A DNA stretch of 47,872 nucleotides, taken from positions 1 to 47,872 of IMG/VR virus record IMGVR_UViG_3300044645_000555. The stretch is one strand, 5' to 3'. The stretch is from a virus. Each line of letters begins with the position of its first letter. Within the stretch, counting starts at the first letter, position 1. Under the pieces are notes generated by a model. The model had not been told where the DNA came from. It did not search any database and worked only from the letters and a program-made list of their open reading frames with translations. Made by a program: the position numbers and the translations under genes. Shown here one piece after another: positions 5,444 through 46,968 of this stretch.

Positions 5444-6215
5444 AGGTTATTAGTTTGGTTGCTGGAAGTTCACCATTCTGACATCCACGCCAATCTAGGA
5501 TGCCAATACCGGGGCGACAAATAGAATCTCCTACTACTTTGTGACCATATTTTGTGAGCAATTGCCAAGCAGGAGTTGCCATGAAAATACCTGATCCATC
5601 ATTGAAAATACCGCCCGTGTGCCTATGGCCTCGTAAATATACTTTTGGAACCCTATGACCAACACGGGAGTAATTCTGTCGAGCATTGCCCATCGTTATA
5701 GACATTGCCCCTGCTTCAAGGTATGCCCTAGAACTGGTCGGCATATGGTGGGCAATATCAATCAAGGTTCCGTTAATTTCAACGAGTCCTTTGTCTCCTA
5801 GCCAGATTGCCCCAATCTCTTTGGCAATCATCTTTTCCCAATCTCCAACGTGGCATTCTGTTCCTGCCGTCATGTAAACAACTGATGCCATTTTAGCCAA
5901 TGGCTTGAGGCATTCAACAGCCGCAAGTGCATGGTCAAAATTTAATGCCGCCACAACTTCCGTTGTTCCATGATGCCTTCCCTCAATGCAGTCGCCATTA
6001 ATAAAAAGTGCAAATGGATCGTTTTTAAAGTGACCTTTGATCTTTTTGTTTTTGTCCTGCCAGCATTGCCATAGCCATTGCTGGTGAAGATTGTTTCCAA
6101 GGCTAACTTTATTGCCTGTGCTTGTGATATGATCATCAGGCCAAAGACCAACAGATGACCCACAATGGAGATCCGATACTACAACCGCACCAACAGGGGG
6201 TTTTGATTTAATCAT
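5409..6215 (-). CDS. Calcineurin-like metallophosphoesterase
   Basis: 268 aa. The five metal-binding blocks are present: SDLHCGS (D15, H17), INGDCIEG (N73-D75), GTECHVGD (H122 in place of the usual GNH box), IDIAHH (H156-H157) and LRGHRH (G196-H199). These coordinate two metal ions for phosphodiester or phosphomonoester hydrolysis. Phages carry such enzymes for nucleotide or nucleic-acid end processing; substrate cannot be told here. Start overlaps the stop of the upstream gene (ATGATTAA). Confidence 0.85.
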   Translation of the reverse strand: MIKSKPPVGAVVVSDLHCGSSVGLWPDDHITSTGNKVSLGNNLHQQWLWQCWQDKNKKIKGHFKNDPFALFINGDCIEGRHHGTTEVVAALNFDHALAAVECLKPLAKMASVVYMTAGTECHVGDWEKMIAKEIGAIWLGDKGLVEINGTLIDIAHHMPTSSRAYLEAGAMSITMGNARQNYSRVGHRVPKVYLRGHRHTGGIFNDGSGIFMATPAWQLLTKYGHKVVGDSICRPGIGILDWRGCQNGELPATKLITYEPSETKPIRS

Positions 6216-6603
6216 TGGATTGTTTTTTTATATCCTGCGGAGGCTTATCAGAAACTAGATTCTTTAGTAATCGGGATGCATCACGCAAGGATATTTCCTC
6301 ATCCTCCATCATTTGTGCAAGCATCTGCATTAACTTAATCCGTTCGGTGAGATGGTGAAGGTAACTGATGAGATCCAATTGCTCATCCTTTAGATTTCTA
6401 GCATACCATCCTGCCCCTGCTGTCCAGAACTGCGTTTTGTGTTCTGCGCTTCCCTTAAAATACTTATCCAATCCAGCTACTGTTGCTTCTGACCAAATAT
6501 CAAGAGCATCTTGTTCTGGAGTCATGTCACTTTTTTTTAGGTTTTTTACCTTTGGGTTTTTGAATTGACCCATAACCAACTCTAGCAGATCGGAGAATTG
6601 CAT
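6208..6603 (-). CDS. Helical hypothetical protein
   Basis: 131 aa. The middle, WTAGAGWYARNLKDEQLDLI followed by SYLHHLTERI, resembles the helix pair of MazG-like and related nucleotide pyrophosphohydrolase proteins, but the EExxE metal motif is missing, so no enzyme activity is claimed. The start is preceded by the AAGCAACCACCACATC leader that also precedes many early genes. Coupled to the phosphoesterase downstream. Confidence 0.6.
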   Translation of the reverse strand: MQFSDLLELVMGQFKNPKVKNLKKSDMTPEQDALDIWSEATVAGLDKYFKGSAEHKTQFWTAGAGWYARNLKDEQLDLISYLHHLTERIKLMQMLAQMMEDEEISLRDASRLLKNLVSDKPPQDIKKQSND

Positions 6604-6630
6604 TTGGTTTTGCGGATGTGGTGGTTGCTT

Positions 6631-12325: not shown

Positions 12326-12610
12326 ATGGCAGACAAAAACACGCTTAACCTAGCCGCCGCTATTATCAATGATCGTAGATATAGCGAACTTAAAACAGCA
12401 ATTTACGAGGATCTTGTAAAAAACGATCACGCTACAGTTGTGGCAGTATTCAAAATGTTGCAAGATTATGCATTGGAAGCAGAAGATAATTCATTCCATG
12501 TTTCTGAAAAACCTAGAAAAATTATTGAGAAGATAACTACACATGATCTTGACCTTGATCCTGATCTTGATGATTCTCTGACCAATGAAGAGATTGCTCT
12601 TCGCAAGTAA
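12326..12610 (+). CDS. Small acidic hypothetical protein
   Basis: 94 aa between portal and scaffold, one base after the portal stop. Helical N-terminus, then a repetitive acidic run (DLDLDPDLDDSL). Ends in AAG TAA CCA, the first instance on the plus strand of the stop-leader motif seen through the early region. Might be a head accessory or scaffold partner. Confidence 0.6.
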   Translation: MADKNTLNLAAAIINDRRYSELKTAIYEDLVKNDHATVVAVFKMLQDYALEAEDNSFHVSEKPRKIIEKITTHDLDLDPDLDDSLTNEEIALRK

Positions 12611-12630
12611 CCACAAACAACCACACAAAT

Positions 12631-13956
12631 ATGTCTGAAACCGCCGTTGCAGAAACCACGCAAATTAACGATCTTACTTCAGCTTCCGTAGCTGACAAAG
12701 CCGCAAGAGATGCCGCAATTAAACAGGCAGATAGCTTTTTTAAAGGTGACATTAAGGATGCACCAAAAGGAAACCCTTCAGACCTTTTTAAGAAGTTTGC
12801 TGAAAAACTAAATCAAGACTCCACACAATATCAGGAAAAGATTGATGAAGAAAAGCAAACCAAGCGTGATGCTGAAGAGAATAGACCAGAACCAGAAATT
12901 AAAGCCTCTTCTGTAGATGACGAGAAAAAGGGTGGATATATCAAATCCCTCAAGCAAACCAATGAGCAACTCTCAAAAGAAGCGGCTGAACTAAAGGCCC
13001 GTGTAGAAAAGATTCCAGATTACGAAAAAGAAATTGAGGATCTTCGTTCCAAGATTGACGATGGAGGAACAAAGAAGGAAATGGAGAAGTTACGCAAGGA
13101 GCTTGAACAGGCAGTACAAGAAAGGCAAGAAAGGGAAACCGCCCTCATGTCGGATCTTGAGAATCTTCGTCAAGCCAATGCTTTGCTGAATCTCCCTGCT
13201 GATCCAAACTTCAAAAGGGATTATGATGCGCCGATTCTTAATGGATACAATCAGGTTAAAATGATTGTTGGTGATGATCAGTTTTCCGTTACTGAATTTG
13301 AGAAAGCTATTGCCGCTTATGAGGTTTCCCTTCGTAGTGAAGACCCAAGCGAAAAATCAAGACAACGTGAAATTTCCAAAACAACCCTAAATGCCATTTA
13401 TGAGAATCTTTCTCCAATGGAGCAAGCCAAGTTCCAAAACACGGCTTATGATGTTATGGCAAAAATTGAAGCAAGAAATTCTGCACTCAATGACTGGCAG
13501 AATACCAAAGCTAGGATTGATGAGGAAAACACTCGCAAAGCCCATGCTACAAGGTCGCAAGTAGGAAAGCGTTGGCAGGATGCATTCTCACAAGCTAAAC
13601 AAATGCTTGATGAGGCAATTAAGTATCCAGAAGAAATTGCCAAGATTATTGCATCACAACAAATTGATGATGACACATCGGAAGATGAGATGATTGCTGA
13701 AGCGGCATTGCGTGAAAATAGCAATTATGCTCCAGAACAAATCACCCGTGTTCTTCAACAGGGAGCAAAGTTTAAGAAACAAAAGGCTTATACCTTTGCT
13801 CTTGAAAAACAAGTTTCTGAATTAAACGAAACCATACGCAAGATGCGTGGGTCTTCTACTGGAGATGGAACTATTGGTTCCTCTTCTGCTGGCAAAGCAA
13901 CGGAAGTTGAAGAAAGAACTCCTGCGGCTTTGTTTGCTAAATTTAGAAATAAATAA
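12631..13956 (+). CDS. Scaffolding-like protein
   Basis: 441 aa, highly charged and helical with a long heptad region (residues about 95-190: IKSLKQTNEQLSKEAAELKA, EKEIEDLRSKI, MEKLRKELEQAVQERQERE). Position directly before the major capsid gene and the coiled-coil, Glu/Lys-rich composition fit a head assembly scaffold. Starts after the A/C-rich leader AACCACAAACAACCACACAA. No protease domain is visible. Confidence 0.65.
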   Translation: MSETAVAETTQINDLTSASVADKAARDAAIKQADSFFKGDIKDAPKGNPSDLFKKFAEKLNQDSTQYQEKIDEEKQTKRDAEENRPEPEIKASSVDDEKKGGYIKSLKQTNEQLSKEAAELKARVEKIPDYEKEIEDLRSKIDDGGTKKEMEKLRKELEQAVQERQERETALMSDLENLRQANALLNLPADPNFKRDYDAPILNGYNQVKMIVGDDQFSVTEFEKAIAAYEVSLRSEDPSEKSRQREISKTTLNAIYENLSPMEQAKFQNTAYDVMAKIEARNSALNDWQNTKARIDEENTRKAHATRSQVGKRWQDAFSQAKQMLDEAIKYPEEIAKIIASQQIDDDTSEDEMIAEAALRENSNYAPEQITRVLQQGAKFKKQKAYTFALEKQVSELNETIRKMRGSSTGDGTIGSSSAGKATEVEERTPAALFAKFRNK

Positions 13957-14232: not shown

Positions 14233-15642
14233 ATGGCACAGAATGGCATTACGTTCTCCTCATGCCAAGACGTTGATACGCTCTTTCGTGAGGCTAGGAC
14301 ATACTACAATCCCTTCTTCATCAAGAAGATGGCGATTAACTCCATCTACTATGGTCGTCTTGAAACCGAGACTTGGCCTCTGAACACCCTCCCGACCCAA
14401 AAGGCATTCCGCTTTGGTCGTGGATGGTACAACCCTGATCAACCTTGGCAAGAAGTCCAGAGTGGTCGTTGCGTCCAAAATGCTGATGATATTCAGTTTG
14501 AGACCATCGCCCATCCCGGCACGGAAAGCTACTCGTTCAGCCTTTTCACCAAGGCAATGCGTACCGATTGGTATCAGCTTACCGATTTCATGTATCGTCT
14601 GTTCCCACAGGAAGAGATGGATCACATCATGGCTACCAATGTCAACATCACCAAGAACGTCCATGAGGAGTTTTCCCGCTCGCAATGGATCGGAGGTGCT
14701 GGTCACAAGTGGTGTCCCATCAGCGATGGTCAGAGCCTTCTCTCTTGCCAAGCTCAAGACGATCAGATGTTCATCGTTCAACCCTTTGAGGGAACGAACG
14801 AGGGTAGCTTCAACATGGGCTATGTCTATGTTAAACTCCCTGCTTCCCAGCTTGGAAACATTGGTCTTCTCTCGCTTGATACGCTTGATGACATCCTCAT
14901 CAACCTTCAGCGTGAAGATGATGCCTATCGTCTCGACGTAAGCGAGGCCGCTGGTCGTCCTCTCCTTGAGGTTATCGTTCCCGATAGCCGTGTTCTCCGT
15001 CAGCTTTGGCAGTATGCCAAGCAGTCTGGTGGATGGTGGGAGAGCGTTAGCGATTTCGATGACAAGCAACTTCAATACTCCCTTGGTATTGATCGTGTTA
15101 TCGGAAACTACGCTTTCTGCAACGACATCAACGGCGTTCGTCTGAAAGTTGATTGGGCTTATAATGCGGCTCTTTCGACCTTTAACGCCAACAATCCTGA
15201 CACTTGGCCTCGTCTGGTTCGTGTTCTGCCTTATGTGCCTGTTACCACCGAGCTTGGTTGCAAGTATGTGCAGAACCCCGAATACAACAATGCCGACTTC
15301 GGCATCACCAACCCTTGGGTCAACAAGGCTATGATCAAGTGGATTAGCCCTTCCCAAAGCGGAATCGGTGAGGCTCAAGGCATGACCCAGAACTATGCTG
15401 GTGATTGGCAATGGAAGAACCCCGATTGGGAGTGCAACATCAAGCGTGACCAAGGTTTCTTCTGGAACCAGTTCCGTATGGGTATGCAGTTCCAAGATCC
15501 GACCCTGATGCATTCGATCCTTCACAGGCTCAACACCAGCCGTCTGATCATCCCTGCGCCTTGCACCTTATCCACGAACTACACGCCGCAATACACCCCT
15601 GATTGCTACGTCTGTTCTAGCGTTGTTAGCCAGCCTATCTAA
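14233..15642 (+). CDS. Major capsid protein
   Basis: 469 aa. Position after portal and scaffold, soluble mixed alpha/beta composition with many aromatic residues, and very strong codon bias toward C- and G-ending codons compared with neighbours (a sign of the most highly expressed gene) all support the call. No SD sequence; initiation follows an A/C-rich leader. The bias leaves an open antisense frame of 421 codons, which is an artefact. HK97-type fold is expected but cannot be seen directly. Confidence 0.8.
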   Translation: MAQNGITFSSCQDVDTLFREARTYYNPFFIKKMAINSIYYGRLETETWPLNTLPTQKAFRFGRGWYNPDQPWQEVQSGRCVQNADDIQFETIAHPGTESYSFSLFTKAMRTDWYQLTDFMYRLFPQEEMDHIMATNVNITKNVHEEFSRSQWIGGAGHKWCPISDGQSLLSCQAQDDQMFIVQPFEGTNEGSFNMGYVYVKLPASQLGNIGLLSLDTLDDILINLQREDDAYRLDVSEAAGRPLLEVIVPDSRVLRQLWQYAKQSGGWWESVSDFDDKQLQYSLGIDRVIGNYAFCNDINGVRLKVDWAYNAALSTFNANNPDTWPRLVRVLPYVPVTTELGCKYVQNPEYNNADFGITNPWVNKAMIKWISPSQSGIGEAQGMTQNYAGDWQWKNPDWECNIKRDQGFFWNQFRMGMQFQDPTLMHSILHRLNTSRLIIPAPCTLSTNYTPQYTPDCYVCSSVVSQPI

Positions 15643-27404: not shown

Positions 27405-28277
27405 ATGGCTATCGGATACTACAATTTCTCGCCAATCCAGCAAGGCAACCAGCAAGTCATTAATTCAATGGCTGGCCTTGGTCAGCAAATCTCTAGTGCT
27501 ATTGAAACTCATGCGGCAACTGAATCCGCTAAAGCCATGTTGCCCATGTTGCAACAACAGTATCAGGCTGGAATGCAAAGGATTGCTGAAGGGCATCCAG
27601 AGGGAATGACTGACATTTACGATGCCGCAATGACTGCCTCGCAGAATCCTTTTTTGGCTCCTATGGCTAAAAGTGCTTTAACTACGGCGCAGTCTGCAAA
27701 CATTAATGTACAGCATATGTTGCGAACTTTAGCATACCAGCAAGGACGGCAAAGCGGGGATGCTAAACCAATGTCTATTGGTACGCAAATGTCTGCCATG
27801 AAAAACTTTGATGTAATGGATACAAAGTTGCAAGAAAGGCAAAATGAAGCATTGCGTTTGGGAGATCAAACAACTTTTGACCAAATTGCACAAGAGAGGG
27901 AAAGTTTGCGTAACTCTATGACGCAAGCTCAATTAAGTGTTCCTGCACTTGGCGCAGAAGGAAAAGGCTTTAATACAGCAAGTCAATTACTTGCAACACA
28001 AAAAGCATTAAAGGCGGAAAAATTAAAAGGTTCTGAACATTGGTTAAGAAAAAGTCTAAATACAGATCCCGAAAAAGTTAAGGAATTGGAGTCACGAATC
28101 CAGAAATTAAGAACTGGCGGTCTTCCTTCTATGCAGGGTAGCAATCAAGCAGGGTCACAAATTCAGCAAGGAAATGCTACCTTTAATTCTAAAGAAGAAG
28201 TAGGAAATGCTTTTAAATCTGGTCAAATTACCAAAGAACAGGCTATTCAATTGCTTAAATCATTCCCTAACCAATGA
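27405..28277 (+). CDS. Ejection (internal virion) protein, helical
   Basis: 290 aa from ATG 27405. Gln/Ala-rich helices throughout (FSPIQQGNQQVINSMAGLGQ, AMLPMLQQQYQAGMQRIAEG). The C-terminus carries a disordered Gln-rich linker and a short helix (KSGQITKEQAIQLLKSF). Stop overlaps the start of the giant gene (ATGA), tying the two in translation as in podovirus ejection operons. Confidence 0.55.
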   Translation: MAIGYYNFSPIQQGNQQVINSMAGLGQQISSAIETHAATESAKAMLPMLQQQYQAGMQRIAEGHPEGMTDIYDAAMTASQNPFLAPMAKSALTTAQSANINVQHMLRTLAYQQGRQSGDAKPMSIGTQMSAMKNFDVMDTKLQERQNEALRLGDQTTFDQIAQERESLRNSMTQAQLSVPALGAEGKGFNTASQLLATQKALKAEKLKGSEHWLRKSLNTDPEKVKELESRIQKLRTGGLPSMQGSNQAGSQIQQGNATFNSKEEVGNAFKSGQITKEQAIQLLKSFPNQ

Positions 28278-31200
28278 ACGAAGATGAAGCGGTAACATTT
28301 TTAAACGAATCTGAAGACGAGGACGATGGTGGGCAAGTTCAACCAGAGTCAATGACTCCAGATGAAGTAGGGCCGCAATACGTTCCGCAAGTTCGTGCGT
28401 CTGGAATGAGTGATCAGGATGCATTGAAATTCCTAGAAGCATATTCTCCAGACGCAAAAACTTCTTCTGGGGCAAGTGCTTCTATCCCTGCGGCAAAAAA
28501 GGGACAAGCAATGAGTGATGATGAGGCAATGGCGTTTTTAAGCTCCTATTCTCCAGAGTCCTATTCTCCAGAGCAAACAGGCAAAACAATCAACTTGCCA
28601 GCAATGCCTTGGTATGAAAATCTTGCAAAATCAACTGCCGCACAAACTGCCGCATCATTTATACGGCAAGCAGAAGGCTTTGAAAGGGCTGGAGCCGCCC
28701 CTGTAACTGATCTTTCTAGGGTTAATGCACCATTTCAAAGGGCTGGAACATCTGAAGAAGTTACATCAACTTTTGATAAATCCATTGCTGATCAAGAGGC
28801 ATTATTAAGTAATTTGCAATCGGTTGCTGATAAAAAAGGATTTGTGTCTAGTGATTTAAAACGGCAAATGGATGCCGCTAAACAACAAATTGGCAATCTT
28901 CAGATTCAAAAACAACAAACACTAGAACGACCAGAATATAGTGAACAAGCCCAACAGGAATTGCTTCAAGAGAGGCAACAAATGGGACAAGAGGCAACTC
29001 AATTGGAGCAAAAAGCTAAAGGAATGTTTCCTTACTTTGGAGTTAATGCTTCTGATGAATCTGTTTCAGCACAAATAGGAAGAGGAGTTGGAACATTTGC
29101 TGGTCTTGCTCCAGCAATGGTTACTGGGCCTTTGTCATTGCCAATTATGGCTACTCAAGGCGCAAGCCAAGCATATGCCGAAGGATACAATGCAAAGGCA
29201 GAAGAACTTAAAAAGCAGGGTGTAGCTGATCAAGGTGCGATTGACAAAGAAGCCCATCAAGCAGGAAGTCAAGCCGCCGTAGGATCTGTTCCACAACTTG
29301 CGGCATATATGGTTGGTGGCGCATTAACAACCAAAGCTACTAGCGCATTGCTCAAAGGTTCTTCTCCTATTGTAAAGGGTCTTGTCGGTGGAACTGCCGC
29401 CGCTGGTGTTAATCTTGCAACGTCTGGTGGATTAAGGGTGGCGCAAGGTGGGAGTTTTGCTCCAACTACTGAACAATCGGTTCCAGATATTTTGTTTGGC
29501 GCAATTCATGGCGTGGGTTCATTTGCTCAAGCTAGGGCAGAAGCAAAAGCCAAGATTGATGCTTCTATTGGTGGGCCAGAACCAAGGGTAAAGCCTTCTG
29601 CAAACTCTGCGGTAAATGAACGTGAAGCGCAAATCCTTGCTGGTGCTGACGCTCAAGCTGAAGTTCCACTTACCCCAACGCAGGAAAAAATAAACAAGCA
29701 ATGGGCAGTCCTCAAAAAACAAGCGGCTGAAGTTGCCAATCAGCTTGGTGAACTGCCAGAAAATCATCCAGATCGCCCCGCCTTGAGGGAAAGAGCCGCA
29801 AAGATTGCACAGCAGATAGCAGACTTGAGGGATGGAAAACCTATTGACATTGAGGTTCCCCCCGTTGAAGGTGATGAACGATTCAAGCCAAAGCCTGATG
29901 AAACCACAACCAAAGACCAAGAGCAAAAAACAAGTGGGGTATCTTCTGTCGAAGGTGTCACCGCTGAAGGCAAGCCAAAAGCAAAAGCTGAAGAAGGAAC
30001 TGCACAACCACAAGGTGAAGGTGCGGAAGTAAAAGGAGAAGAAGGTGAAAAACAGCAAACGACCGAAGCTGGATTGCGTGAAGCGTATCCAAATACGGCT
30101 TTCTTTGACGAAGCAAACGAGGCAATACAACGACTCAATCAGGAAGATGCACGAAAGAATAAGCGGACGAGGTTTGCCGCCCCCAGTTTACGGGATCTAT
30201 TGCAGTTAAAGGACAACCCTGCATACAAACTTGCAGACAAACTAGCTGGAATATTTGGGAAAAAAATTGTTCTCTATAAAGGGGAAGTTGGCACAAAAAT
30301 TAACGGAGCAACAGGAGTAGATCCTGCGCTAAAGAACTATATCTTTCTCAAGATTGATGGTGCTAGACCGCATTTGTTTACTGCTGGTCACGAATTGTGG
30401 CATCACATTGAACTTTATTCCCCTGTATTGGCTACAGACTTACGCAATAAGATTAAGCCTCTAATCAAGAATTGGAACAAACTTAACAAAAGATATAGCG
30501 AAGCAGGATACGATTCTAGCCGTTACTTTGATGAACACATTGGCGACTTCCTTGGGGATGCCATGCAAGACCCGAAGTTCTGGAATGACCTTGCCAAGAA
30601 GAACCCCAAGTCATTTAAGGAACTTGCTACCCAAACTGTTGATTGGCTGAATAAACTCCTTTACCAACTCAAAGATTGGAAGATGGGTGGTGAGTTTACT
30701 AGGGATATTGAGAAAGCAAGGAATATGCTTGCTGATGGTCTTAACAACTTTGCAGAAGGAAAGGATGAGCCTGTCCCTACCCGCAAAAAAGGCAAAGCTA
30801 AAACTCCTGCACCAAAGGCAGAAACTCCAGAAGGAGAATTAAAAGTCACTATAAAACGAGATAAGGATTTTTCATTCAATGGCGAATACAACGTAACCAT
30901 TGGAGATAGAAAATTTAAAATCTTCAGAGATTCCGAAACTGGATACTGGCGAGATGCGGAAAAGATTGGTTCAAAATATGGTTTTTTTGAAGGAATTCTT
31001 TCTACCGAAAACAGGGCAGAAGCTATTGAAAAGCTAAAAAAAATTGTTGCTTCTGAAGAAGGCGAAGGCCCGATGTTCCAACAGGAAGCTGAAGAACAAA
31101 AAACCAAAGATTTCTATTCTCAACTTCAGCGCACGATTGAGGAAAAGATGCCCAACAAGGCATCTGTTTTGCAGATTAAATCCATCATTGACCCTGCCAA

Positions 31201-34200
31201 GGGAAGTGGTGTAAAGCCAAACGAACTCAAGTGGAGCAACATTGATGGCTTCCTAGAGGGCAAGCAAAGCGTCACCAAGCAGGAGGTTCTGGACTACTTA
31301 CGCAACGAGGGATCGGTAAAATTTGAGGAGGTTCGCCTTGGAGCAAGACCTGATGAGGTTCTTTCTGATGCCGATAAGGAAAGGCTTGCATATCTTGAAA
31401 AGGAAAATGCCAAAGCTCCCCTTGGTGCTATTGATGATCGTCTTGGAAGCGGAACATTCCAAGAGTTGATGAAGCTCCAAAATATCCGTGATAAGAGTAC
31501 GGCTGAAACGCTGTATGCAAAGCAGGAGGAATTTGAAAGGCAAGCAAGACAAGCACAGCGAGTTGGAAATCAGACTAGAGCAAATTCTTTGTGGAAAGAA
31601 GCTAACCACATGACTGCCCGTGTTGAGGCATTAGAGATTAACAATGCTGGTATTGAGAACCGACCAAAGTATGAGCAATATGTTCTGCCCAACGGCGAGA
31701 ACTACAGGGAGGTTGTGCTGACGATGCCGGGATCGGATTCCCTTAATCTCAAGGCTGGGATGGAGGCTCGCCAGATGGATGATGGAACATGGAACATCTG
31801 GGACAAAAACGGGTGGGTATATCGTGAGGGATCAGCAACCAAAGATGCCCTTCTTGGGAAAGCATCACAGGATGAAATGCTGGCAAAACCCAATCAGGAA
31901 ACATATCGCTCCTCCCACTTCCGAGAAATCCCCAACTATGTAGCCCACATGAGGCTAGACGAAAGAAAGGATGCCTCTGGTAAGGATGGTCTCTTTATTG
32001 AGGAGATCCAATCTGACAGGCATCAGCAGGGGCGAGAGAAGGGGTATATTGGTGAAGGCGAAACTTCCGATGCGGTAAAACAAGCCCCGTTTCTTGAAAA
32101 CAAAATCCCAGACGCACCCTTCCGCAAGGATTGGTCAGTCCAGATGTTTAAACGTGCCTTGCGTGATGCCATTGCAAGCGGCAAGGAATGGATCGGCTGG
32201 ACTAAAGGAGATACTCAAGCTGAACGCTATGACTTGAGCAAGCAAGTTGATTCAATTGAAGTAATTAAATCTGGTGATAATAAATATCATGTTACGGCAT
32301 ACAAGAATGACAAGGATGTAGTAAACGATCCCAATGTATCGCAAGACAAATTGCCAGATATGATTGGAAAAGAATTGGCAAATAAAGCTATTGATCAGAT
32401 CAATTCTTCCAAAGATCCAGAAATGGAATTAGCTAATTTTTCAGGCGTTGACCTCAAAGTAGGTGGCGAAGGCATGAAAGGCTTCTACGACCAGATCCTT
32501 CCCAAAGAGATTGGCAAGTATGTCAAGAAGTGGGGGGCAAAAGTTGAGGAGGGTGCTGTTTTAGAAAGAAAAGCAGGATCTACATGGATGGCTGAATATC
32601 CAGATGGAAGAAGGGGTACTGTTTATACAGAAGAAGGTGCTGAAATGGCAAGAGAACGAGGTGCAAAAGTTACACCTACTGAAACCAAAGAAACACCAAT
32701 CTGGAAAGTTGCCATCACTCCAGAGATGCGTGAGAGTGTTGCTAAAGAAGGTCAGCCCATGTTCCAGCAGGACAGGCCAGAGTTAGATGCTGGAGATAAA
32801 GATACTGGTGCATACCACTATGGTGATCTTGGTATTGCTGATGATACTAAATATTCAAGAATGTCTGCCAGTAGAGGTACTGGTCATTTTGGAACAGGTA
32901 CTTATTTCCTTGGAGAAAAAAGTGCTGGAGGAAAATACGGAGGGAGATCAGATAGGCCAATTGTTAATGTCAATCTTGAGGGTTTGAATCTGGCTAAACC
33001 CAAAGACCCAATGCGATTGCATGATGCATTGAAGTTGGTTAACAAAATGGTTTACAGAGAAGAGAAACCTCAATTTTCTGAAGAAAGATTTGATGGGAAT
33101 AGGGCATTGTTCGGTTTGAATTATGAACTTGGGTTTTCTAAACACTCAAAAGAAGAAATTCAAAAGGCAATAGAAGATACATACAATGAGTTTGCATCGG
33201 GTGAAAACGATGGATTCAGATCACCTTCTACTGTGGTGATGCAGAAACTTGGATATGACGGAATTGATGTGAGAGGAACAAAAGCAGACAATACCGATTA
33301 CGGAAGCGTAGTTTATCCGAAACAAGAAACTCCTATGTTCCAGCAGGATCGCCCTACGGAACAAAAGGCATCCAAAGAGCGTGAGAAGGTTATGTTGCAA
33401 GCGACTCCTGTGGTTAAGAAAACCCGCAACACAATTGTAAATACCTTCAAGCGCAAACCAGCAAAAGAATCTATCGCATACATGAGAGACGCTGGTGATA
33501 ATGCCGCCAACATTGTTGCTAAACAACAAAGCAATGAGATTGCAAATGACTTGAAGCGTGAGTTTAACAAGCAAAAAGATCAAGCCGCAGAAGCATTGTC
33601 TTTTGTAATTGAAGCAAAGGGAGATCCTGCTGAATTAGCAAACATGAAGCAGAAGATTGAAAACTCTCCTGATGCTTCTCCTGCATGGCAGAAAAAATCC
33701 CTTGCCGCAATTGACTTTGCACAAAAGAACTTCTCTCGTTTTGATCCTATGGTTCAGAAGTATGAGCAGATTGGTCTTCAGCAAGTAGTTGAAGAAAATG
33801 CCAATGGCATAGATACCCCTGTGCGTGAAGGATATGTTCCTCATTATCAAGACTTGGAGGAGCAAGAACTATTTGGTGGAGCAGGAACAGGGTCAGCAAC
33901 AGGGTTCCGAAAGATGCGTACCTACGATACGTTTGCTGACTCTATTGCCAATGGGGTAGATCCAAAAAGCATTAATGCTGTTGACCTTCTCCAAAAGCGT
34001 CTTTCCTCTGGTCAGAAGTCAATCAACTATCGTTCATGGATTGATTCCCTTAAAGCAACAATTGACCCTGTATCTGGTGATCCAATTGCTACAAAAATTT
34101 CCATTGTAAAGCGTCCAGATGGTTCTAGTTACACGCAAATTCCTAGAGGCTACAAAGTAGAAACGCTTGCTGGACAATCAGTTGCTATTAAAAATGGATA

Positions 34201-35788
34201 TGAAGGTATTCTTTCTGCCCTTAACGATCCTTCTGCTTGGAGGGGAAAAGGGGGTCAAATAATTCAAAAGATTGGCGGCACAGGGAAGGCAATTACTCTT
34301 GGATTGGATACCTATCACTTGGGTCGTATTGCAATATGGCAATCTTTAATTAAGTCGTTAGGAATAAAAACATTTCAACTGCCATTTCCTTCTTACAAAA
34401 AAGGTGTAACGCTTTTGGATCAGTCTATTCCAGAATTGCAAAAGATGATTGCCAATGGAGAGATACCCAAGGCATGGGCAAAAGGTCTCATGGAAAACAA
34501 GAGGCTTCTTAATCTTTCCGTTAAGACAGGATATAATATTGGTGGAATTTCTGATGCACTTCACCAAGATTGGGTGCATAAAATTCCTGCAATTGGTTCT
34601 TTTAATTCTTGGCTTTTTAATCAGTTCCAACGTGGGGCAATGGCAGAAACTTGGTTGCTTGAGTTCCAACGCTATCGGAGTGCATATCCAGAGCTTTCAG
34701 AAACAGATGTTGCTCGTAAAGTTTCCAAGGATCTTAATACCCGATTCGGAAACCTTGGAAGGCAGGGCATATTAAAGAGCAAAACTATGCAGGATACTGC
34801 TAGGTTCCTTTTCCTTGCACCCCAATGGAACGAGGGTCTTATTAGAACTGAACTTGGTGCTATGGGGCAAACAGGAAAAGCATTAGTAGATGCGGCTACT
34901 GGCAAGCGGTTCTTTGCTGGCATTCTTGCACGTTCTGTTGGAGGGATGGTGGTAGCTCAATTCATTGCCAATCAATTAATCAATTACGGGACAAGAGGAA
35001 TTCCTACTTGGGAAAATCCAGAAGAAGGATTTGGTGAAAAAATAAGTGCTTGGATTCCTGATTTTTGGGGAGGGCCGGGATTTTTCTTAAATCCTATGTC
35101 TCTTGCTATGGAGACAACCAATTTATTAATGAAAGGATATGAAAGAACTGGTGATGCGGTGGATACTGCAATGAATTATTTCCGTAGTCGTTCCTCTGTT
35201 CCAATGCGTCCTGTTTGGGATGCCGTCACTAATAAAGATGTATTAGGAACCTATTATGCCCCCGGTGAGAAATGGAAGGGTATGCTCAAAGATTCCATTC
35301 CAATGCCCATTGCTGGAGGAGCAATATATTCAGCGGCAAAAGAAGGAATTACTGGAGAAGCCAATCAACAATTTGCTGGTCAATATCAGAAGCAGTTGTT
35401 CTCTACCTTTGGTGTTAAGCTAGAACAAGCCCCAAGTGATGAATCTCGTTTGTTTACTCTGGCCCATCATTACAAACTTGAAAATGATATTCCAGATCGT
35501 ACTGCTGGATATAGCTATCCCTACAAAGAACTTAATCACGCTTTGATGATTGGCAATGTTACCAATGCAAGAAAGGCTATGACGGAACTTTTGAAAACAA
35601 AGCCTGTTAACGAAATTAAAGAGTATTATAAAAAATACCCAACTATGAAGTTGCTTCAAAGCAATGCTCAAATGAAAGAGTTTATGGATACGCTTACTGA
35701 CGAACAAAGAGAAACATATGATAGGGCTAAAGATAAAAGGAAAGAAACATCTCAAGCCGCATTGGAAATCCTAGCAGACGTTCAATAA
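28274..35788 (+). CDS. Giant polyvalent ejected protein with zincin and ADP-ribosyltransferase-like domains
   Basis: 2504 aa. Residues 1-96: three copies of a D(E/Q)A..FL motif (4-10, about 48-54, about 83-89). Around 260-400: small-residue helices. HELWH at 706-710 is a zincin active site. FIEEIQSD (1241-1248) and WIGWTKGD (1306-1313) are blocks typical of polyvalent-protein domains. About 1500-1686 is ADP-ribosyltransferase-like: GAYHYG (1512-), RGTGHFGTGTYF (1534-1545), YDGIDV (1661-1666). PMFQQ recurs at 933, 1495 and 1687, bracketing domains. The C-terminal 500 residues hold the large helical region usual at the end of such proteins, with a hydrophobic stretch near 2213-2237. Probably packaged, ejected and possibly processed to effectors. 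Confidence 0.8.
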   Translation: MNEDEAVTFLNESEDEDDGGQVQPESMTPDEVGPQYVPQVRASGMSDQDALKFLEAYSPDAKTSSGASASIPAAKKGQAMSDDEAMAFLSSYSPESYSPEQTGKTINLPAMPWYENLAKSTAAQTAASFIRQAEGFERAGAAPVTDLSRVNAPFQRAGTSEEVTSTFDKSIADQEALLSNLQSVADKKGFVSSDLKRQMDAAKQQIGNLQIQKQQTLERPEYSEQAQQELLQERQQMGQEATQLEQKAKGMFPYFGVNASDESVSAQIGRGVGTFAGLAPAMVTGPLSLPIMATQGASQAYAEGYNAKAEELKKQGVADQGAIDKEAHQAGSQAAVGSVPQLAAYMVGGALTTKATSALLKGSSPIVKGLVGGTAAAGVNLATSGGLRVAQGGSFAPTTEQSVPDILFGAIHGVGSFAQARAEAKAKIDASIGGPEPRVKPSANSAVNEREAQILAGADAQAEVPLTPTQEKINKQWAVLKKQAAEVANQLGELPENHPDRPALRERAAKIAQQIADLRDGKPIDIEVPPVEGDERFKPKPDETTTKDQEQKTSGVSSVEGVTAEGKPKAKAEEGTAQPQGEGAEVKGEEGEKQQTTEAGLREAYPNTAFFDEANEAIQRLNQEDARKNKRTRFAAPSLRDLLQLKDNPAYKLADKLAGIFGKKIVLYKGEVGTKINGATGVDPALKNYIFLKIDGARPHLFTAGHELWHHIELYSPVLATDLRNKIKPLIKNWNKLNKRYSEAGYDSSRYFDEHIGDFLGDAMQDPKFWNDLAKKNPKSFKELATQTVDWLNKLLYQLKDWKMGGEFTRDIEKARNMLADGLNNFAEGKDEPVPTRKKGKAKTPAPKAETPEGELKVTIKRDKDFSFNGEYNVTIGDRKFKIFRDSETGYWRDAEKIGSKYGFFEGILSTENRAEAIEKLKKIVASEEGEGPMFQQEAEEQKTKDFYSQLQRTIEEKMPNKASVLQIKSIIDPAKGSGVKPNELKWSNIDGFLEGKQSVTKQEVLDYLRNEGSVKFEEVRLGARPDEVLSDADKERLAYLEKENAKAPLGAIDDRLGSGTFQELMKLQNIRDKSTAETLYAKQEEFERQARQAQRVGNQTRANSLWKEANHMTARVEALEINNAGIENRPKYEQYVLPNGENYREVVLTMPGSDSLNLKAGMEARQMDDGTWNIWDKNGWVYREGSATKDALLGKASQDEMLAKPNQETYRSSHFREIPNYVAHMRLDERKDASGKDGLFIEEIQSDRHQQGREKGYIGEGETSDAVKQAPFLENKIPDAPFRKDWSVQMFKRALRDAIASGKEWIGWTKGDTQAERYDLSKQVDSIEVIKSGDNKYHVTAYKNDKDVVNDPNVSQDKLPDMIGKELANKAIDQINSSKDPEMELANFSGVDLKVGGEGMKGFYDQILPKEIGKYVKKWGAKVEEGAVLERKAGSTWMAEYPDGRRGTVYTEEGAEMARERGAKVTPTETKETPIWKVAITPEMRESVAKEGQPMFQQDRPELDAGDKDTGAYHYGDLGIADDTKYSRMSASRGTGHFGTGTYFLGEKSAGGKYGGRSDRPIVNVNLEGLNLAKPKDPMRLHDALKLVNKMVYREEKPQFSEERFDGNRALFGLNYELGFSKHSKEEIQKAIEDTYNEFASGENDGFRSPSTVVMQKLGYDGIDVRGTKADNTDYGSVVYPKQETPMFQQDRPTEQKASKEREKVMLQATPVVKKTRNTIVNTFKRKPAKESIAYMRDAGDNAANIVAKQQSNEIANDLKREFNKQKDQAAEALSFVIEAKGDPAELANMKQKIENSPDASPAWQKKSLAAIDFAQKNFSRFDPMVQKYEQIGLQQVVEENANGIDTPVREGYVPHYQDLEEQELFGGAGTGSATGFRKMRTYDTFADSIANGVDPKSINAVDLLQKRLSSGQKSINYRSWIDSLKATIDPVSGDPIATKISIVKRPDGSSYTQIPRGYKVETLAGQSVAIKNGYEGILSALNDPSAWRGKGGQIIQKIGGTGKAITLGLDTYHLGRIAIWQSLIKSLGIKTFQLPFPSYKKGVTLLDQSIPELQKMIANGEIPKAWAKGLMENKRLLNLSVKTGYNIGGISDALHQDWVHKIPAIGSFNSWLFNQFQRGAMAETWLLEFQRYRSAYPELSETDVARKVSKDLNTRFGNLGRQGILKSKTMQDTARFLFLAPQWNEGLIRTELGAMGQTGKALVDAATGKRFFAGILARSVGGMVVAQFIANQLINYGTRGIPTWENPEEGFGEKISAWIPDFWGGPGFFLNPMSLAMETTNLLMKGYERTGDAVDTAMNYFRSRSSVPMRPVWDAVTNKDVLGTYYAPGEKWKGMLKDSIPMPIAGGAIYSAAKEGITGEANQQFAGQYQKQLFSTFGVKLEQAPSDESRLFTLAHHYKLENDIPDRTAGYSYPYKELNHALMIGNVTNARKAMTELLKTKPVNEIKEYYKKYPTMKLLQSNAQMKEFMDTLTDEQRETYDRAKDKRKETSQAALEILADVQ

Positions 35789-37879: not shown

Positions 37880-38534
37880 ATACGCAATCCCAATTCTGGT
37901 CGTAGTAACGGAAGATTTCCCTGTAATCCCAATCGGCAAGGTATTTCAGAATGTCGTCGCAAGTATATCCAAAGCTGGCTAGGGCATTAGGGTTAAACTC
38001 ACAAACGATATGCTTGAGTGCAGGGTTGGATAGCAGTTCTTTCGCACCTTCTAGTATTGCTGGCTCAAATCCTTCAGCATCTAGCTTTAAGAAAATACAC
38101 TCATTATCTTTAATGAAGTTTTTATAATGCTGATCTAGCTTGGCAGATATTCTATCTCCCCCCTCAAGGACTGGTCTTCCCCCCATGTTGCCCCCTTCTG
38201 AATGATATATTTGAACACTCCTTCCATCTCCTACTGGCGAGTGAATGGTTGTTGCTTCTGGACAATTGTGCCTTAAACATTGAACGGCATCTCCTTGAGG
38301 TTCCCAAGCAAGAACTGAAAACCCTTTGTCTAGGAATATCCTAGATGTATCTCCAATGAATGCCCCGACATCAATGCATAGCGTTTTTTTCGGCATAGCA
38401 TTTAGTTCGGGCAAATCAATAAAGTCTTTATCGTATCCCAGCTTGCCAAACTTTTTAACTTGCATGGATATAGACTGATCGTTTTTAAGCAACCAATAGC
38501 CTTTATATTCTTCTACAAAATCAGGAATACTCAT
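37863..38534 (-). CDS. FkbM-family methyltransferase
   Basis: 223 aa. SAM-binding motif I is CIDVGAFIGDTSRIFLDKG (about 53-71), followed by LAWEPQGDAVQCLRHNCP; FLKLDAEGFEPAILEGAKEL (about 148-167) is the FkbM signature. These enzymes O-methylate sugars or similar hydroxyls. It is the last gene of the early operon and overlaps the 3' end of the glycosyltransferase tail to tail, so the pair may act on the same glycan although expressed at different times. Confidence 0.82.
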   Translation of the reverse strand: MSIPDFVEEYKGYWLLKNDQSISMQVKKFGKLGYDKDFIDLPELNAMPKKTLCIDVGAFIGDTSRIFLDKGFSVLAWEPQGDAVQCLRHNCPEATTIHSPVGDGRSVQIYHSEGGNMGGRPVLEGGDRISAKLDQHYKNFIKDNECIFLKLDAEGFEPAILEGAKELLSNPALKHIVCEFNPNALASFGYTCDDILKYLADWDYREIFRYYDQNWDCVFTRKP

Positions 38535-39926: not shown

Positions 39927-40141
39927 TTTAAAATAAAGTCGTGATCTTGTATTAATTGATAAAGGTGATCACGAGTTGCTTGAAGTGCTTCATCTGCTGT
40001 TTGGAATGTGTTTCCATGCTTTAACCAATTGCGTAGTTGGTGGTCTAGGTTCTGAATACAGTTTTTAAATGCCGATCCATTGATGGCATCGTAATGATCC
40101 TGTTCATCTATTGGTAATTGAAACTCCAGTATCGCTTTCAT
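39923..40141 (-). CDS. Small conserved early protein (MKAILEF type)
   Basis: 72 aa. MKAILEFQLPIDEQDHYDAI opens like a common family of short phage proteins that precede or follow replication genes; the rest (CIQNLDHQLRNWLKHG, TADEALQATRDHLYQL) is helical. ATGA overlaps both ends. Role unknown. Confidence 0.6.
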   Translation of the reverse strand: MKAILEFQLPIDEQDHYDAINGSAFKNCIQNLDHQLRNWLKHGNTFQTADEALQATRDHLYQLIQDHDFILK

Positions 40142-40338
40142 TTTTCAATTGCGGCGTTGATTGCTTCGTTGATCTTTAGGGTTTTTCCTAAAGTGTTAAG
40201 CATTTCGATTTCGCTCAAGATTCCCTCAAGGTAGGAGATTTTTTTGTTGAGGCGTTGATTTTCCTGCATGATTTGATTCAAGAGGTTTTGAATCTCTGGA
40301 TATTCGGGGAATCTGTCGGTGTTTATTTCTATGCTCAT
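40138..40338 (-). CDS. Small coiled-coil protein
   Basis: 66 aa; IQNLLNQIMQENQRLNKKIS is a leucine-zipper-like heptad run. The start follows the leader AAGTAACCACGCAC, which contains the stop codon of the replication gene upstream. Not recognised. Confidence 0.5.
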   Translation of the reverse strand: MSIEINTDRFPEYPEIQNLLNQIMQENQRLNKKISYLEGILSEIEMLNTLGKTLKINEAINAAIEK

Positions 40339-40346
40339 GTGCGTGG

Positions 40347-40841
40347 TTACTTTATGCTGTTAAGGTATTCTTGCTGGATGGATTTGGGCCAAGTGTTGAA
40401 GGGGAATGTATTCCAAGTTGGGTGAACCAACATGGATTCTGGATATACATAGCACCGCCAAACAAACGCTTCCTGCTCATTCACTCCAAGGCGTGAGGTG
40501 ATGGTTGGTTTCTTGGCTTTTAAAGCCTCGTAATCCATGCCTTCATCCTCATATCTACCCTGATTCAACCATGTGCTAGGGTTGGGAATGAACTTGCCTC
40601 CATCCTTCTGCCAATCGGGAGAAGCAATGGATCTCTTTAGTGCAGGAAGAACACGCTCAATGGACAACTTCTTCCTCATCCATATTTCCTTGCAGTAAGG
40701 CTTTGCTGTCTTCTTCGGGTATGCTGACCAGAACGCCTCAAAGTCTTTGCTGGAGGCTTTCTTGGGGCTTATAGGGGCATCCTGTATATCGTAGGGACGA
40801 TTGCAACAGGGGCAAATATCTGCTTCTTGTATTGTATTCAT
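40347..40841 (-). CDS. Replication protein-like (DnaT / initiator C-terminal type)
   Basis: 164 aa from ATG 40841, which has a good GGAG box inside the upstream gene's last codons. ICPCCNRPYD near the start is a CxxC knuckle. DFEAFWSAYPKKTAKPYCKE, then IASPDWQKDGGKFIPNPSTW and LNQGRYEDE match the conserved C-terminal block of phage replication initiators and DnaT-like primosome proteins that load the host helicase. It is the only replication-initiation candidate in the genome. Confidence 0.65.
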   Translation of the reverse strand: MNTIQEADICPCCNRPYDIQDAPISPKKASSKDFEAFWSAYPKKTAKPYCKEIWMRKKLSIERVLPALKRSIASPDWQKDGGKFIPNPSTWLNQGRYEDEGMDYEALKAKKPTITSRLGVNEQEAFVWRCYVYPESMLVHPTWNTFPFNTWPKSIQQEYLNSIK

Positions 40842-41570: not shown

Positions 41571-41769
41571 TCCAGTTGGGGAAGTTGATTTTTCCTTTGT
41601 CATCAATGCCTACGCAATAAAGGTTGGAGAAAGAACGCTTTACTGATCTTGCTCCTGCATCGAATGCTTCCTTTACCCTGTCATCTAGCGATGGAATGCT
41701 ATTATCAGGGTTGAGATAACGGATATGCTCTCCGCTCAAATAATCTTCAGCTTCCTTTGAGTGTTTCAT
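41563..41769 (-). CDS. Small hypothetical protein
   Basis: 68 aa from ATG 41769, forming ATGA with the upstream stop. Contains RVKEAFDAGARSVKRSFSNL. Not recognised. Confidence 0.5.
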   Translation of the reverse strand: MKHSKEAEDYLSGEHIRYLNPDNSIPSLDDRVKEAFDAGARSVKRSFSNLYCVGIDDKGKINFPNWNE

Positions 41770-41990
41770 TTGCAAAGGAAATAAGCCCCGAATCCAATTG
41801 ATACGATCAGAAGGGCAAACAGCACTCGCATGACTGCCTTTAGATCATTGATGTTCTCCTCAAGTTCAAGGAGTTCGGAATGATGCTTCCTGACCATCTC
41901 TAGGATATGCTCTGATTCCCGAAAGTGGAAATCAATCCTTGAGGCGATCTCGTTGATTTTGTCGGATGTGGTTGGTTTTCTCAATTTCAT
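41766..41990 (-). CDS. Small protein with C-terminal membrane anchor
   Basis: 74 aa. A coiled-coil N-terminal part (SEHILEMVRKHHSELLELEE) is followed by a single hydrophobic span (MRVLFALLIVSIGFGAYFL) at residues about 54-72. It is a tail-anchored inner-membrane protein, of unknown use; superinfection exclusion or membrane tethering are possibilities. Leader AGCAACCACGCACC. Confidence 0.5.
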   Translation of the reverse strand: MKLRKPTTSDKINEIASRIDFHFRESEHILEMVRKHHSELLELEENINDLKAVMRVLFALLIVSIGFGAYFLCK

Positions 41991-42023
41991 GGTGCGTGGT
42001 TGCTGGTGTTGGGTTTGGGTTAA

Positions 42024-43943: not shown

Positions 43944-44132
43944 TTACCTGCTAGAATTATCATTTTTAATTATTTGATTCATTCTTTGACCATATATAAG
44001 AATTTGAGAAATAATATGTCCAATTCCCAATGCTAGTTGTTCTTCTTTACAAGATGAATCATTTCCATGCCTTTTTAGGTGAAAATTAACTCCATCTTCC
44101 TCTTCTGTAATTATAATCTCTATAGTTTGCAT
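43944..44132 (-). CDS. Small hypothetical protein
   Basis: 62 aa. MQTIEIIITEEEDGVNFHLK suggests an N-terminal beta hairpin, the rest helix (LALGIGHIISQILIYGQRMN). Starts on the last base of the recT-like stop (TAATG). Not recognised. Confidence 0.5.
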   Translation of the reverse strand: MQTIEIIITEEEDGVNFHLKRHGNDSSCKEEQLALGIGHIISQILIYGQRMNQIIKNDNSSR

Positions 44133-44956
44133 TACAGGATTGGCTTAAAGGATTTTACATCATCCCATTTCTCAATGAGTCGGGCGATGATGGCATCGGG
44201 GATCAGGGGATTGCCATCCTTGTCGGCGAGTTTGCTATCCTTGGTAATGCCCTTAACCTTCTTCGCCACTAGGAAGTGGATAATGTGGGCATCGGCAATC
44301 TCATCACTCCACATCAGGCTCTGAAGGAAGCTGATGGGATTGGTTGGAAGTTCCTTGGGTGCTTCTGGCGTATCTTCAACAATCTCGGCAACGATTGTCT
44401 CTGGCTCTTCTTCCTGCTTGATTACAGGCTTTTCAATGCGAATCTCCTTGGGTGCATTAAACTCGGCAACCTCTTCTGGCACATACATACCGCTGGTTGC
44501 CATCGGACAAGTGGTTCTGATGCCTTCGCTCACTACCCTGCTACGGAGCATTTGTCTTGGGAACTTGCGGAACATATCCCTGCCAGCAAGTCCTGCTGTC
44601 TTTGCTCGTTCCATGTCCCAAGTGATGCGAACCTTGCCTCCTTGTGGGTGCGAGAAGGTGGCATCGGCAATGTCATTGGTCAGGTTGTGCCATTCAACCG
44701 ATCCTCCTGACTGAAGGAAGTCTCGGAGCATTGCCTCGCTCTTCTTTGAAGGTCGGCCTTGGATAATATCATAATCCCTAGCGGCTAGGGCAGGGTGACG
44801 ACCCTCTGCAATGGAGATGAGCATCAGGGACATTGCGGCTTCGGGAGTCTTAATCCCGAATAGCCCCGATTTCGCAACGGCTAATGCCATTTGCTGAATC
44901 TCTGCCATTGGTATCATCGGGAGTTGACTTGTGGTTGCTAACGTGGTTGTATTCAT
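44132..44956 (-). CDS. RecT-like single-strand annealing protein
   Basis: 274 aa. TPEAAMSLMLISIAEGRHPA, then RDYDIIQGRPSKKSEAMLRD, ADATFSHPQGGKVRITWDME, PRQMLRSRVVSEGIRTTCP and MYVPEEVAEF match the phage RecT/Red-beta-type recombinase family over the first 185 residues; the remainder is an acidic linker and a small C-terminal domain. It coats and anneals single strands. Leader contains AAGCAACCACGCAC. Confidence 0.8.
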   Translation of the reverse strand: MNTTTLATTSQLPMIPMAEIQQMALAVAKSGLFGIKTPEAAMSLMLISIAEGRHPALAARDYDIIQGRPSKKSEAMLRDFLQSGGSVEWHNLTNDIADATFSHPQGGKVRITWDMERAKTAGLAGRDMFRKFPRQMLRSRVVSEGIRTTCPMATSGMYVPEEVAEFNAPKEIRIEKPVIKQEEEPETIVAEIVEDTPEAPKELPTNPISFLQSLMWSDEIADAHIIHFLVAKKVKGITKDSKLADKDGNPLIPDAIIARLIEKWDDVKSFKPIL

Positions 44957-44987
44957 TCGTGGTTCGTGCGTGGTTGCTTGATCCCAA

Positions 44988-45028
44988 ACTCCCTAGCCTT
45001 TATTCATGGGGCTAGGGAGTCCTTTTTT
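44988..45028 (+). terminator. Strong hairpin with T tract on the plus strand, in the recT-like leader
   Basis: ACTCCCTAGCC (44988-44998) pairs perfectly with GGCTAGGGAGT (45010-45020), then CCTTTTTT on the plus strand. Genes here run on the minus strand, on which the stem is followed only by TTTGGG. It may stop rightward antisense transcription or shape the 5' end of the recT-like message. Confidence 0.6.
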
Positions 45029-45032
45029 GGGG

Positions 45033-45209
45033 TTACTTGGTTTTGTTTTTGGAACGTGGTTTACGCCCCTTAACTTCTGGAGTGGTTGCTTCGGCTTTGA
45101 TCTTCGCCTTCTTCCCTGCTGACATTTTGCGAGTGTCGATCAGGGTTTTGTTTTTTGCTGGCGTGGTCTGCATCTTGTTGCGGATTGCGTCCATTACGGC
45201 TTTAAGCAT
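45033..45209 (-). CDS. Small very basic protein
   Basis: 58 aa from ATG 45209, overlapping the upstream stop; the ORF can be extended 12 codons upstream inside the previous gene. Lys-rich throughout (KMSAGKKAKIKAEATTPE, KGRKPRSKNKTK). Possibly nucleic-acid binding. Ends AAG TAA CCC. Confidence 0.5.
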   Translation of the reverse strand: MLKAVMDAIRNKMQTTPAKNKTLIDTRKMSAGKKAKIKAEATTPEVKGRKPRSKNKTK

Positions 45210-45330
45210 CGGTCTTGTCGGCTGGGGTTGCGTGAACAAGGGCATGGATTTCGAGGAGAAGCTCCTGCGAAATGTGTCCTAGTTTATTTGCGATCTCTTG
45301 AGCGAGATTATTCAGTTCTGCTAGTGTCAT
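45202..45330 (-). CDS. 42-aa helical protein
   Basis: ATG 45330 to TAA 45202 (MTLAELNNLAQEIANKLGHI...). Amphipathic helix throughout. The start follows a leader of pure A/C character after AAGTAACC. Not recognised. Confidence 0.5.
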   Translation of the reverse strand: MTLAELNNLAQEIANKLGHISQELLLEIHALVHATPADKTDA

Positions 45331-45353
45331 TGTGTTTTGGTGTTTTGGTTTGG

Positions 45354-45614
45354 TTACTTGCATTTCCAAGCTCGGAGAGACTTGTTGATGCGAGAGTCTG
45401 GATCTCGTGCGGTCTTTGCGCTGGTGAGTTTAGCCTTCATCCCTTTCATCCTAGCGCAAAAACTAGCCTTGCGTCCTGCATCGGCTTTAGTCTTTGGGTT
45501 AGGTGCAGGGGGCTTTAGGTTGCCTCCAGTCGCCTTGTTATAGGATGCCCTTCCCTTGGCATTCAAGCCCCCCTTGGGGTTCTTGCCTTCCTTCCTTGTC
45601 CATGCTTCGCTCAT
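45354..45614 (-). CDS. DUF6321-like small basic protein
   Basis: 86 aa from ATG 45614. SEAWTRKEGKNPKGGLNAKG, RASYNKATGGNLKPP, SFCARMKGMKAKLTS and DPDSRINKSLRAWKC are the near-invariant blocks of a family seen widely in phages and marine bacteria (named DUF6321 as I recall it). Role unknown; basic charge suggests DNA contact. The longer upstream frame overlaps the genes at 45611-45682 and 45679 and is dropped. Confidence 0.7.
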   Translation of the reverse strand: MSEAWTRKEGKNPKGGLNAKGRASYNKATGGNLKPPAPNPKTKADAGRKASFCARMKGMKAKLTSAKTARDPDSRINKSLRAWKCK

Positions 45615-46534: not shown

Positions 46535-46558
46535 GTTTTTATGCGGTTAGTTGTGTGG

Positions 46559-46822
46559 TTACTTCAGAAAAAAATCTCCGCTGGGTGACATAGTAACAGT
46601 TTCCCAAGCTACAGGAATCCAGTCATGTTTATCGGAGATAACTGGTTGGAGTCTGTGCGATCCTTCACGAGGGTCGGTTTCCCCATCCTTGAGGCGACCC
46701 ATTAGAAGATCCCACATCCACTTATTGCTGGACATGGACGTTGAAGCATCTTGCCAATCATCTTGTCCATAATAATTGTGCTGTAATTGAAAACATACTG
46801 CTTTATGCGTGGTTTTGTTCAT
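46559..46822 (-). CDS. Small conserved-looking early protein
   Basis: 87 aa from ATG 46822; the upstream extension shadows the previous gene. HKAVCFQLQHNYYGQDDWQD, NKWMWDLLMGRLKDGETDPR and DWIPVAWETVTMSPSG suggest a compact alpha/beta protein. Ends in AAG TAA CCA. Not recognised. Confidence 0.5.
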   Translation of the reverse strand: MNKTTHKAVCFQLQHNYYGQDDWQDASTSMSSNKWMWDLLMGRLKDGETDPREGSHRLQPVISDKHDWIPVAWETVTMSPSGDFFLK

Positions 46823-46968
46823 GTTGTTTTTTTGTGGTTGCGATTTGCTATGGAGCCTGTATTTATGCGGTTCTGTAGCCAATCTTGTTTATACCCTACA
46901 AGGTTTTTGCAGTATGTGCAAGAACTTTTTACAGGGTTCCAGTTGGTACTGGCTTCTGCTCCCCCCAT
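46819..46968 (-). CDS. 49-aa protein with CxxC
   Basis: ATG 46968 to TGA 46819, overlapping the next start by ATGA. VKSSCTYCKNLVGYKQDW holds one CxxC pair; the C-terminus is basic. TATTGACACTC 6 bases past the upstream stop could be a -35 box. Confidence 0.45.
   Translation of the reverse strand: MGGAEASTNWNPVKSSCTYCKNLVGYKQDWLQNRINTGSIANRNHKKTT

Follow-up and report, generated by a model that had tools for sequence, protein, structure and literature searches.

The window, by which we mean the whole 47,872-nt stretch of DNA analysed, is a 47.9-kb virus record of an uncultured tailed phage. It encodes a terminase large subunit (phrog_2, 1.8e-12), an exonuclease, a replication-initiation protein, a lysozyme domain, three tRNAs and, at 44132..44956 on the minus strand, a RecT-like ssDNA annealing protein (phrog_561, E 1.3e-13). 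The presumed capsid gene (14233-15642) is named by position, its 469-aa product being without a family match; proteins ~89–100% identical to this product occur at 60 loci, and a relative of RecT is encoded at 41 loci. The contig of one relative reaches 52.8 kb, indicating that the right end of the window falls slightly short. Directly 5′ of the presumed capsid gene, in the position of a scaffold gene, lies a 441-aa gene without a Pfam match (12631..13956, plus strand). Late in the rightward operon, a very large protein of 2504 aa (28274-35788, plus strand) is possibly a virion-associated polyvalent protein, and an FkbM-type methyltransferase gene (37863-38534, minus strand; Pfam PF05050, E 1.8e-11) faces the end of the late operon in convergent orientation.

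A short element recurs in the leaders of several of these genes, with a core of AACCA(C) and a full form of approximately AGCAACCAC(G/A)CA, often in tandem and often seen as AGCAACCACGCA. The 441-aa gene is led by a double element, AAGTAACCACAAACAACCACACA (12605..12627, plus strand), in which AAGTAACCACAAA (12605-12617) is followed directly by ACAACCACACA, 3 nt 5′ of the ATG at 12631; the TAA within this element is the stop of gene 12326-12610, and a AACCACGCA copy (12654..12662, plus strand) falls just inside the 12631 gene, in its first codons. The remaining copies are all on the minus strand. Two are exact matches to AAGTAACCACRCA: AAGTAACCACGCA (40340..40352) holds the stop TAA of the 40347 gene, the ATG of a 66-aa gene without a Pfam match (40138..40338) being one base on, and AAGTAACCACACA (46552..46564) holds the stop of the 46559 gene and leads a small ORF from 46534. 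GCAACCACGCA is exact both in CAGCAACCACGCA (41993..42005), 2 nt 5′ of the ATG of a 74-aa gene (41766..41990), and in AAGCAACCACGCA (44967..44979) in the recT leader, 10 nt 5′ of the ATG at 44956. GCAACCAC lies 11 nt 5′ of the ATG at 46822 (46834..46841, the copy there reading GCAACCACAAA), in front of the gene 46559-46822, which has a AACCACGCA copy within its first codons (46806..46814), and again in the leader of 6208-6603 (6621..6628, reading GCAACCACCAC). A weaker copy, AAGTAACCAAACC (45347..45359), leads a small ORF from 45330, and a degenerate one, AAGTAACCCCAAA (45026..45038), closes the gene 45033-45245 just 5′ of a hairpin upstream of recT; in both, TAA terminates the preceding gene in frame. 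The strings given in a preliminary description of this DNA were recovered exactly or nearly so, with loose edges, while that list lacked the copies just inside genes (12654, plus strand; 46814, minus strand) and the second copy in the 12631 leader.

The genome-wide count against shuffled sequence proposed in the preliminary description placed the motif above composition: AACCACRCA occurs seven times in the window against 0.78 expected, a number reached in none of 100 shuffles. Strand- and region-specific shuffling matters here because the right-arm coding strand is A/C-rich; the enrichment survives when the right-arm minus (coding) strand is shuffled alone, with five occurrences against 0.17 expected (0 of 500 shuffles). 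We also compiled 791 non-redundant 40-nt leaders from ~80 near-relative loci, calling genes with a simple ORF script; some starts are therefore wrong, which should have weakened the motif signal rather than created it. De novo k-mer counts on these leaders, made without a preset motif and set against dinucleotide shuffles, returned AGCAACCAC / ACCACGCA as the top words, accompanied by AGCAACC, CAACCAC and GCAACCAC, the last with 23 occurrences where 0.7 are expected. When GCAACCAC was varied base by base, counts fell to about zero at nearly every core position and most one-base core variants were absent; G, A or C is tolerated at position 1, C or T at 2 and C or A at 8, and the AACCA core is intolerant of single changes. 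Judged by these substitutions, the AACCAC element is word-like rather than compositional.

Across the 791 leaders the word is also tied to one strand and to the start codon. Sense matches to AACCAC number 28 between -40 and -21 and 46 between -20 and -1 (74 in total), against 5 and 1 antisense (6 in total), with ~11 expected per 20-nt bin; extended forms between -40 and -1 occur 70 times in sense, compared with ~3.6 expected from same-bin shuffles, and 7 times in antisense. In 20-nt bins, AACCAC stays above background up to +39 after the ATG and is flat beyond. Its distance to the ATG ranges from 0 to 32 nt, with no one value strongly preferred; in these phages AAGGAG, by contrast, lies mostly at 5–8. 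Leaders with the motif are rich in A and C, poor in G (0.10) and weakly folded, less folded than others, and the motif itself is mostly unpaired (0.80 vs 0.71). A Shine-Dalgarno (SD) sequence and the motif share a leader in 3 cases, compared with 6.1 expected. The leaders of near relatives generally show A peaks of 0.42 at -3, 0.41–0.44 at -6/-5 and 0.45–0.46 at -13/-14, a Kozak-like pattern that does not explain AACCAC.

Orthologous leaders provide the strongest sequence evidence for the element. For the 12631 gene, all 28 distinct orthologous leaders contain the motif, where 5.6 are expected and shuffles reach at most 11; flanks, copy number and position drift, and about two thirds of these leaders hold two copies. 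It is found likewise in 8/8 orthologous leaders of the 41766 gene (2.3 expected), 5/5 of the 40138 gene (0.5 expected), 4/5 of the 35811 gene (0.4 expected) and 11/20 of the 6208 gene. Every recT leader examined has it; alignment of eight diverged recT leaders shows the same twelve bases, AGCAACCACGCA, in all eight, at a distance from the ATG that varies from 8 to 15 nt. At 5168, 12326 and 42024 the motif overlaps the end of the preceding coding sequence, and protein conservation may therefore contribute. The presumed capsid gene has the motif in just 3 of 27 leaders (4.0 expected) and the 16004 gene in 1 of 29 (1.5 expected), and the leaders of these two genes are almost as A/C-rich as those that bear it. 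The joining of stop codon and motif, which had been described as a feature of the element, did not hold up as one: the upstream stop is inside the motif (TAACCA) in 16 of the 28 leaders that precede the 12631 gene and separate in 12, and the motif is kept in all. The fusion is thus an economy of space, incidental to function.

The leaders of the window had been called A/C-rich and almost free of SD, and both statements stand for the window itself, where SD occurs in one of 60 leaders. The second fails for the phage as a whole, since SD leaders cluster just past the right end of the window in relatives, including the near-identical L068. In that relative (L068:3700-7030) lies a run of short genes, presumably early, several of which share an SD leader, AAGGAGATAGT/AAGGAGTTAGT, another example being AAAAAGGAGATAGTATTATG; most have a G+C hairpin 5′, and one gene of the cluster encodes an ArdC-type anti-restriction protein. 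With SD leaders in one module and AACCAC elsewhere in the same phage, the motif cannot simply be the initiation style of the host. The suggestion that it might identify that style accordingly falls, as the motif marks a gene subset in a phage with an SD cluster and is enriched in none of the host groups that were accessible.

Searches for a host and for other users of the motif bear on the same point. A TerL search of genome contigs gave no matches, INPHARED held no kin of the presumed capsid or TerL proteins, and the tRNAs of the window match too broadly to point to a host. The nearest RecT with a named host, at 33%, is that of Verrucomicrobia phage P8625, in which the motif is not enriched; some Verrucomicrobiota are SD-scarce (PMC10783764). 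RecT relatives in genomes lie mostly on GC-richer contigs without motif enrichment, distant GC-rich RecT relatives are enriched for SD and not for AACCAC, and a full reading of the L114 leaders showed them to be in part of SD type. The count in candidate host genomes that had been suggested earlier was close to the reversed-pattern control, whether for GCAACCACGCA or for motif plus ATG, in RecT-bearing genomes, in 100 relatives of an Acidobacteria bin and in 274 genomes from the class to which a Burkholderiales bin belongs, these bacterial genomes numbering ~380 and including neither Verrucomicrobiota nor Bacteroidota. Among the matches listed by three pattern scans of viral contigs, no phage outside this family had the motif densely in its leaders; L341, L263 and L292 scored highly and were rejected as motif users, their matches being mostly coding-sequence coincidences. 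No description of the motif was found in the literature searched.

The enrichment, strand, position, base specificity and gene-specific conservation of the element, and the scarcity of SD in leaders that carry it, are directly supported. The near-strict sense orientation, the closeness to the ATG in packed operons and the reach into coding sequence point to a role at the RNA level in translation initiation, and AACCAC, conserved around the starts of one gene set and standing where a ribosome-binding site usually would, probably controls the translation of these genes. We infer from this pattern an action on translation, a positive direction and the identity of a binder. The reading that we favour, tentatively and at a little under an even chance, is of a cis-acting, single-stranded RNA element that would raise 30S recruitment at SD-less starts without anti-SD pairing. 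Sitting in the unstructured, G-poor initiation region of a defined gene subset, the element would be the target of an RNA-binding protein, ribosome-associated or otherwise, and binding would bring more 30S subunits to start codons that have no SD sequence. The element is CA-rich, unstructured and near the start, as are CA-rich translation enhancers; in E. coli, CA-rich repeats after the start codon increase ribosome affinity and expression (PMC4611024). The earlier suggestion of a shared initiation element is thus retained, in a form that is sense-stranded, start-centred, sequence-specific and conserved.

A clearly less probable explanation, although a serious one, is that the motif is an operator at which an RNA-binding protein of the phage (or host) would repress the translation of a regulon, or set its timing, in the manner of RegA. 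A gene subset rather than every gene carries the motif, sites fall on both sides of the ATG within 40 nt, copies occur in tandem, the anti-restriction cluster, presumably early, has SD leaders instead, and among the viral matches listed the motif is seen in this phage family only. Very high output would be expected of the presumed capsid gene, and its lack of the motif is easier to reconcile with regulation than with a general enhancer; the wide variation in spacing to the ATG also counts against an enhancer. Moreover, a motif seen in one phage family and in no accessible bacterial group would be odd if the host ribosome read it. A RegA-like operator would do at least as well as an enhancer in accounting for which genes carry the motif and for its confinement to one family. 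Against it, the motif is much more uniform than RegA sites, and a Pfam scan of 30 phage proteins, which include small orphans, detected no RNA-binding domain. Rather unlikely is a proposal that combines these features: AACCAC may define a regulon at the level of translation, its reader being a factor encoded by the phage or an as yet unknown interaction that recruits the 30S, in which leader class switches translation during infection, early anti-defence genes using SD and replication and assembly genes AACCAC.

The other explanations seem to us improbable. A promoter, protein operator on DNA or RNA-processing site would suit a short, strongly conserved sequence and the conserved hairpin 5′ of the recT copy. 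Copies lie, however, mostly 0–20 nt from the ATG in tightly packed operons, intra-operon sites a few nucleotides from the ATG leaving no room for a promoter; they are almost strictly sense and reach into coding sequence, and no single-subunit polymerase gene was present among the proteins scanned. Nothing supports the processing site that had been offered as an alternative to an initiation element. Pairing with 16S rRNA outside the anti-SD, or with a small RNA, is a poor prospect: AACCACR can pair without a mismatch with UGUGGUU at E. coli 16S 950-956, but 16% of shuffled 7-mers match 16S equally well, so that this site is no better than chance. The 950-956 segment is, besides, paired in the mature 30S, which counts against such pairing, motif spacing is not fixed as it is for SD sites, and no intergenic antisense copy was seen as a possible phage sRNA seed. 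We give equally little credence to a by-product of A/C-rich, G-poor, weakly structured leaders without specific recognition. The leaders are indeed A/C-rich and less folded, with A peaks near -3, -6 and -13 like the Kozak-like pattern of SD-poor bacteria (PMC6847099); nevertheless, dinucleotide shuffles of the same leaders fail to yield the motif, most one-base core variants are absent, other genes lack it despite leaders of similar A/C content, and twelve bases are identical across diverged recT leaders.

Comparison with known systems sharpens these distinctions. CA- or A-rich enhancers and S1-type standby elements (PMC4611024) are likewise unstructured, G-poor and placed around the starts of SD-less genes; they are compositional runs, whereas the phage element is a specific, conserved AACCAC core in certain genes, with candidate activity. 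T4 RegA operators likewise serve a set of several phage genes, without structure, overlapping the AUG or lying just 5′ of it (PMC3014915), a placement shared by the phage motif. RegA sites differ in being A+U-rich, poorly conserved and inclusive of the AUG; their consensus AAUUGUUAUGUAA does not resemble AGCAACCACGCA, and no RegA-like match was found here. The SD-poor leaders of Bacteroidota, reported for Flavobacterium, have similar A peaks near -3, -6 and -13 (A-3/A-6/A-12,13; PMC6847099), but these are single bases at fixed positions, in contrast to a position-flexible word in a phage with a real SD gene cluster. Finally, the motif occupies the same slot before the ATG as an SD sequence without being complementary to the anti-SD or keeping the SD-type spacing of ~5–9 nt; its best matches to 16S lie outside the ...GGATCACCTCCTTA tail (CCUCC), taking the E. 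coli 16S, which may not be that of the host. Sequence-specific, non-SD initiation elements have rarely been documented in bacteria or phages, most SD-less leaders being described by composition alone. Here a single short word, mutable at constant composition and accompanied by dozens of natural leader variants, makes reading by the ribosome or by a phage protein directly testable, and two leader classes in one genome suggest a means for phages to time translation.

The region upstream of recT has further structure. A conserved G+C hairpin (ACTCCCTAGCC / GGCTAGGGAGT; 44988..45020, minus strand) lies 5′ of the recT leader and is also found in L077, L078, L079, L081, L082 and L091. Its stem pairs covary between relatives (CTCCCTAGCC/GGCTAGGGAG, CTCCCTACCC/GGGTAGGGAG and CTCCCGCCC/GGGCGGGAG), the 5′ and 3′ arms are swapped in some of them, and the loop is usually near ATGAACAA. 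A second short box, ACCGCA(C), stands directly 5′ of the ATG in recT leaders, for example in L078, L079 and L081, and AACCGC is itself enriched in leaders, with 16 occurrences against 5.0 expected.
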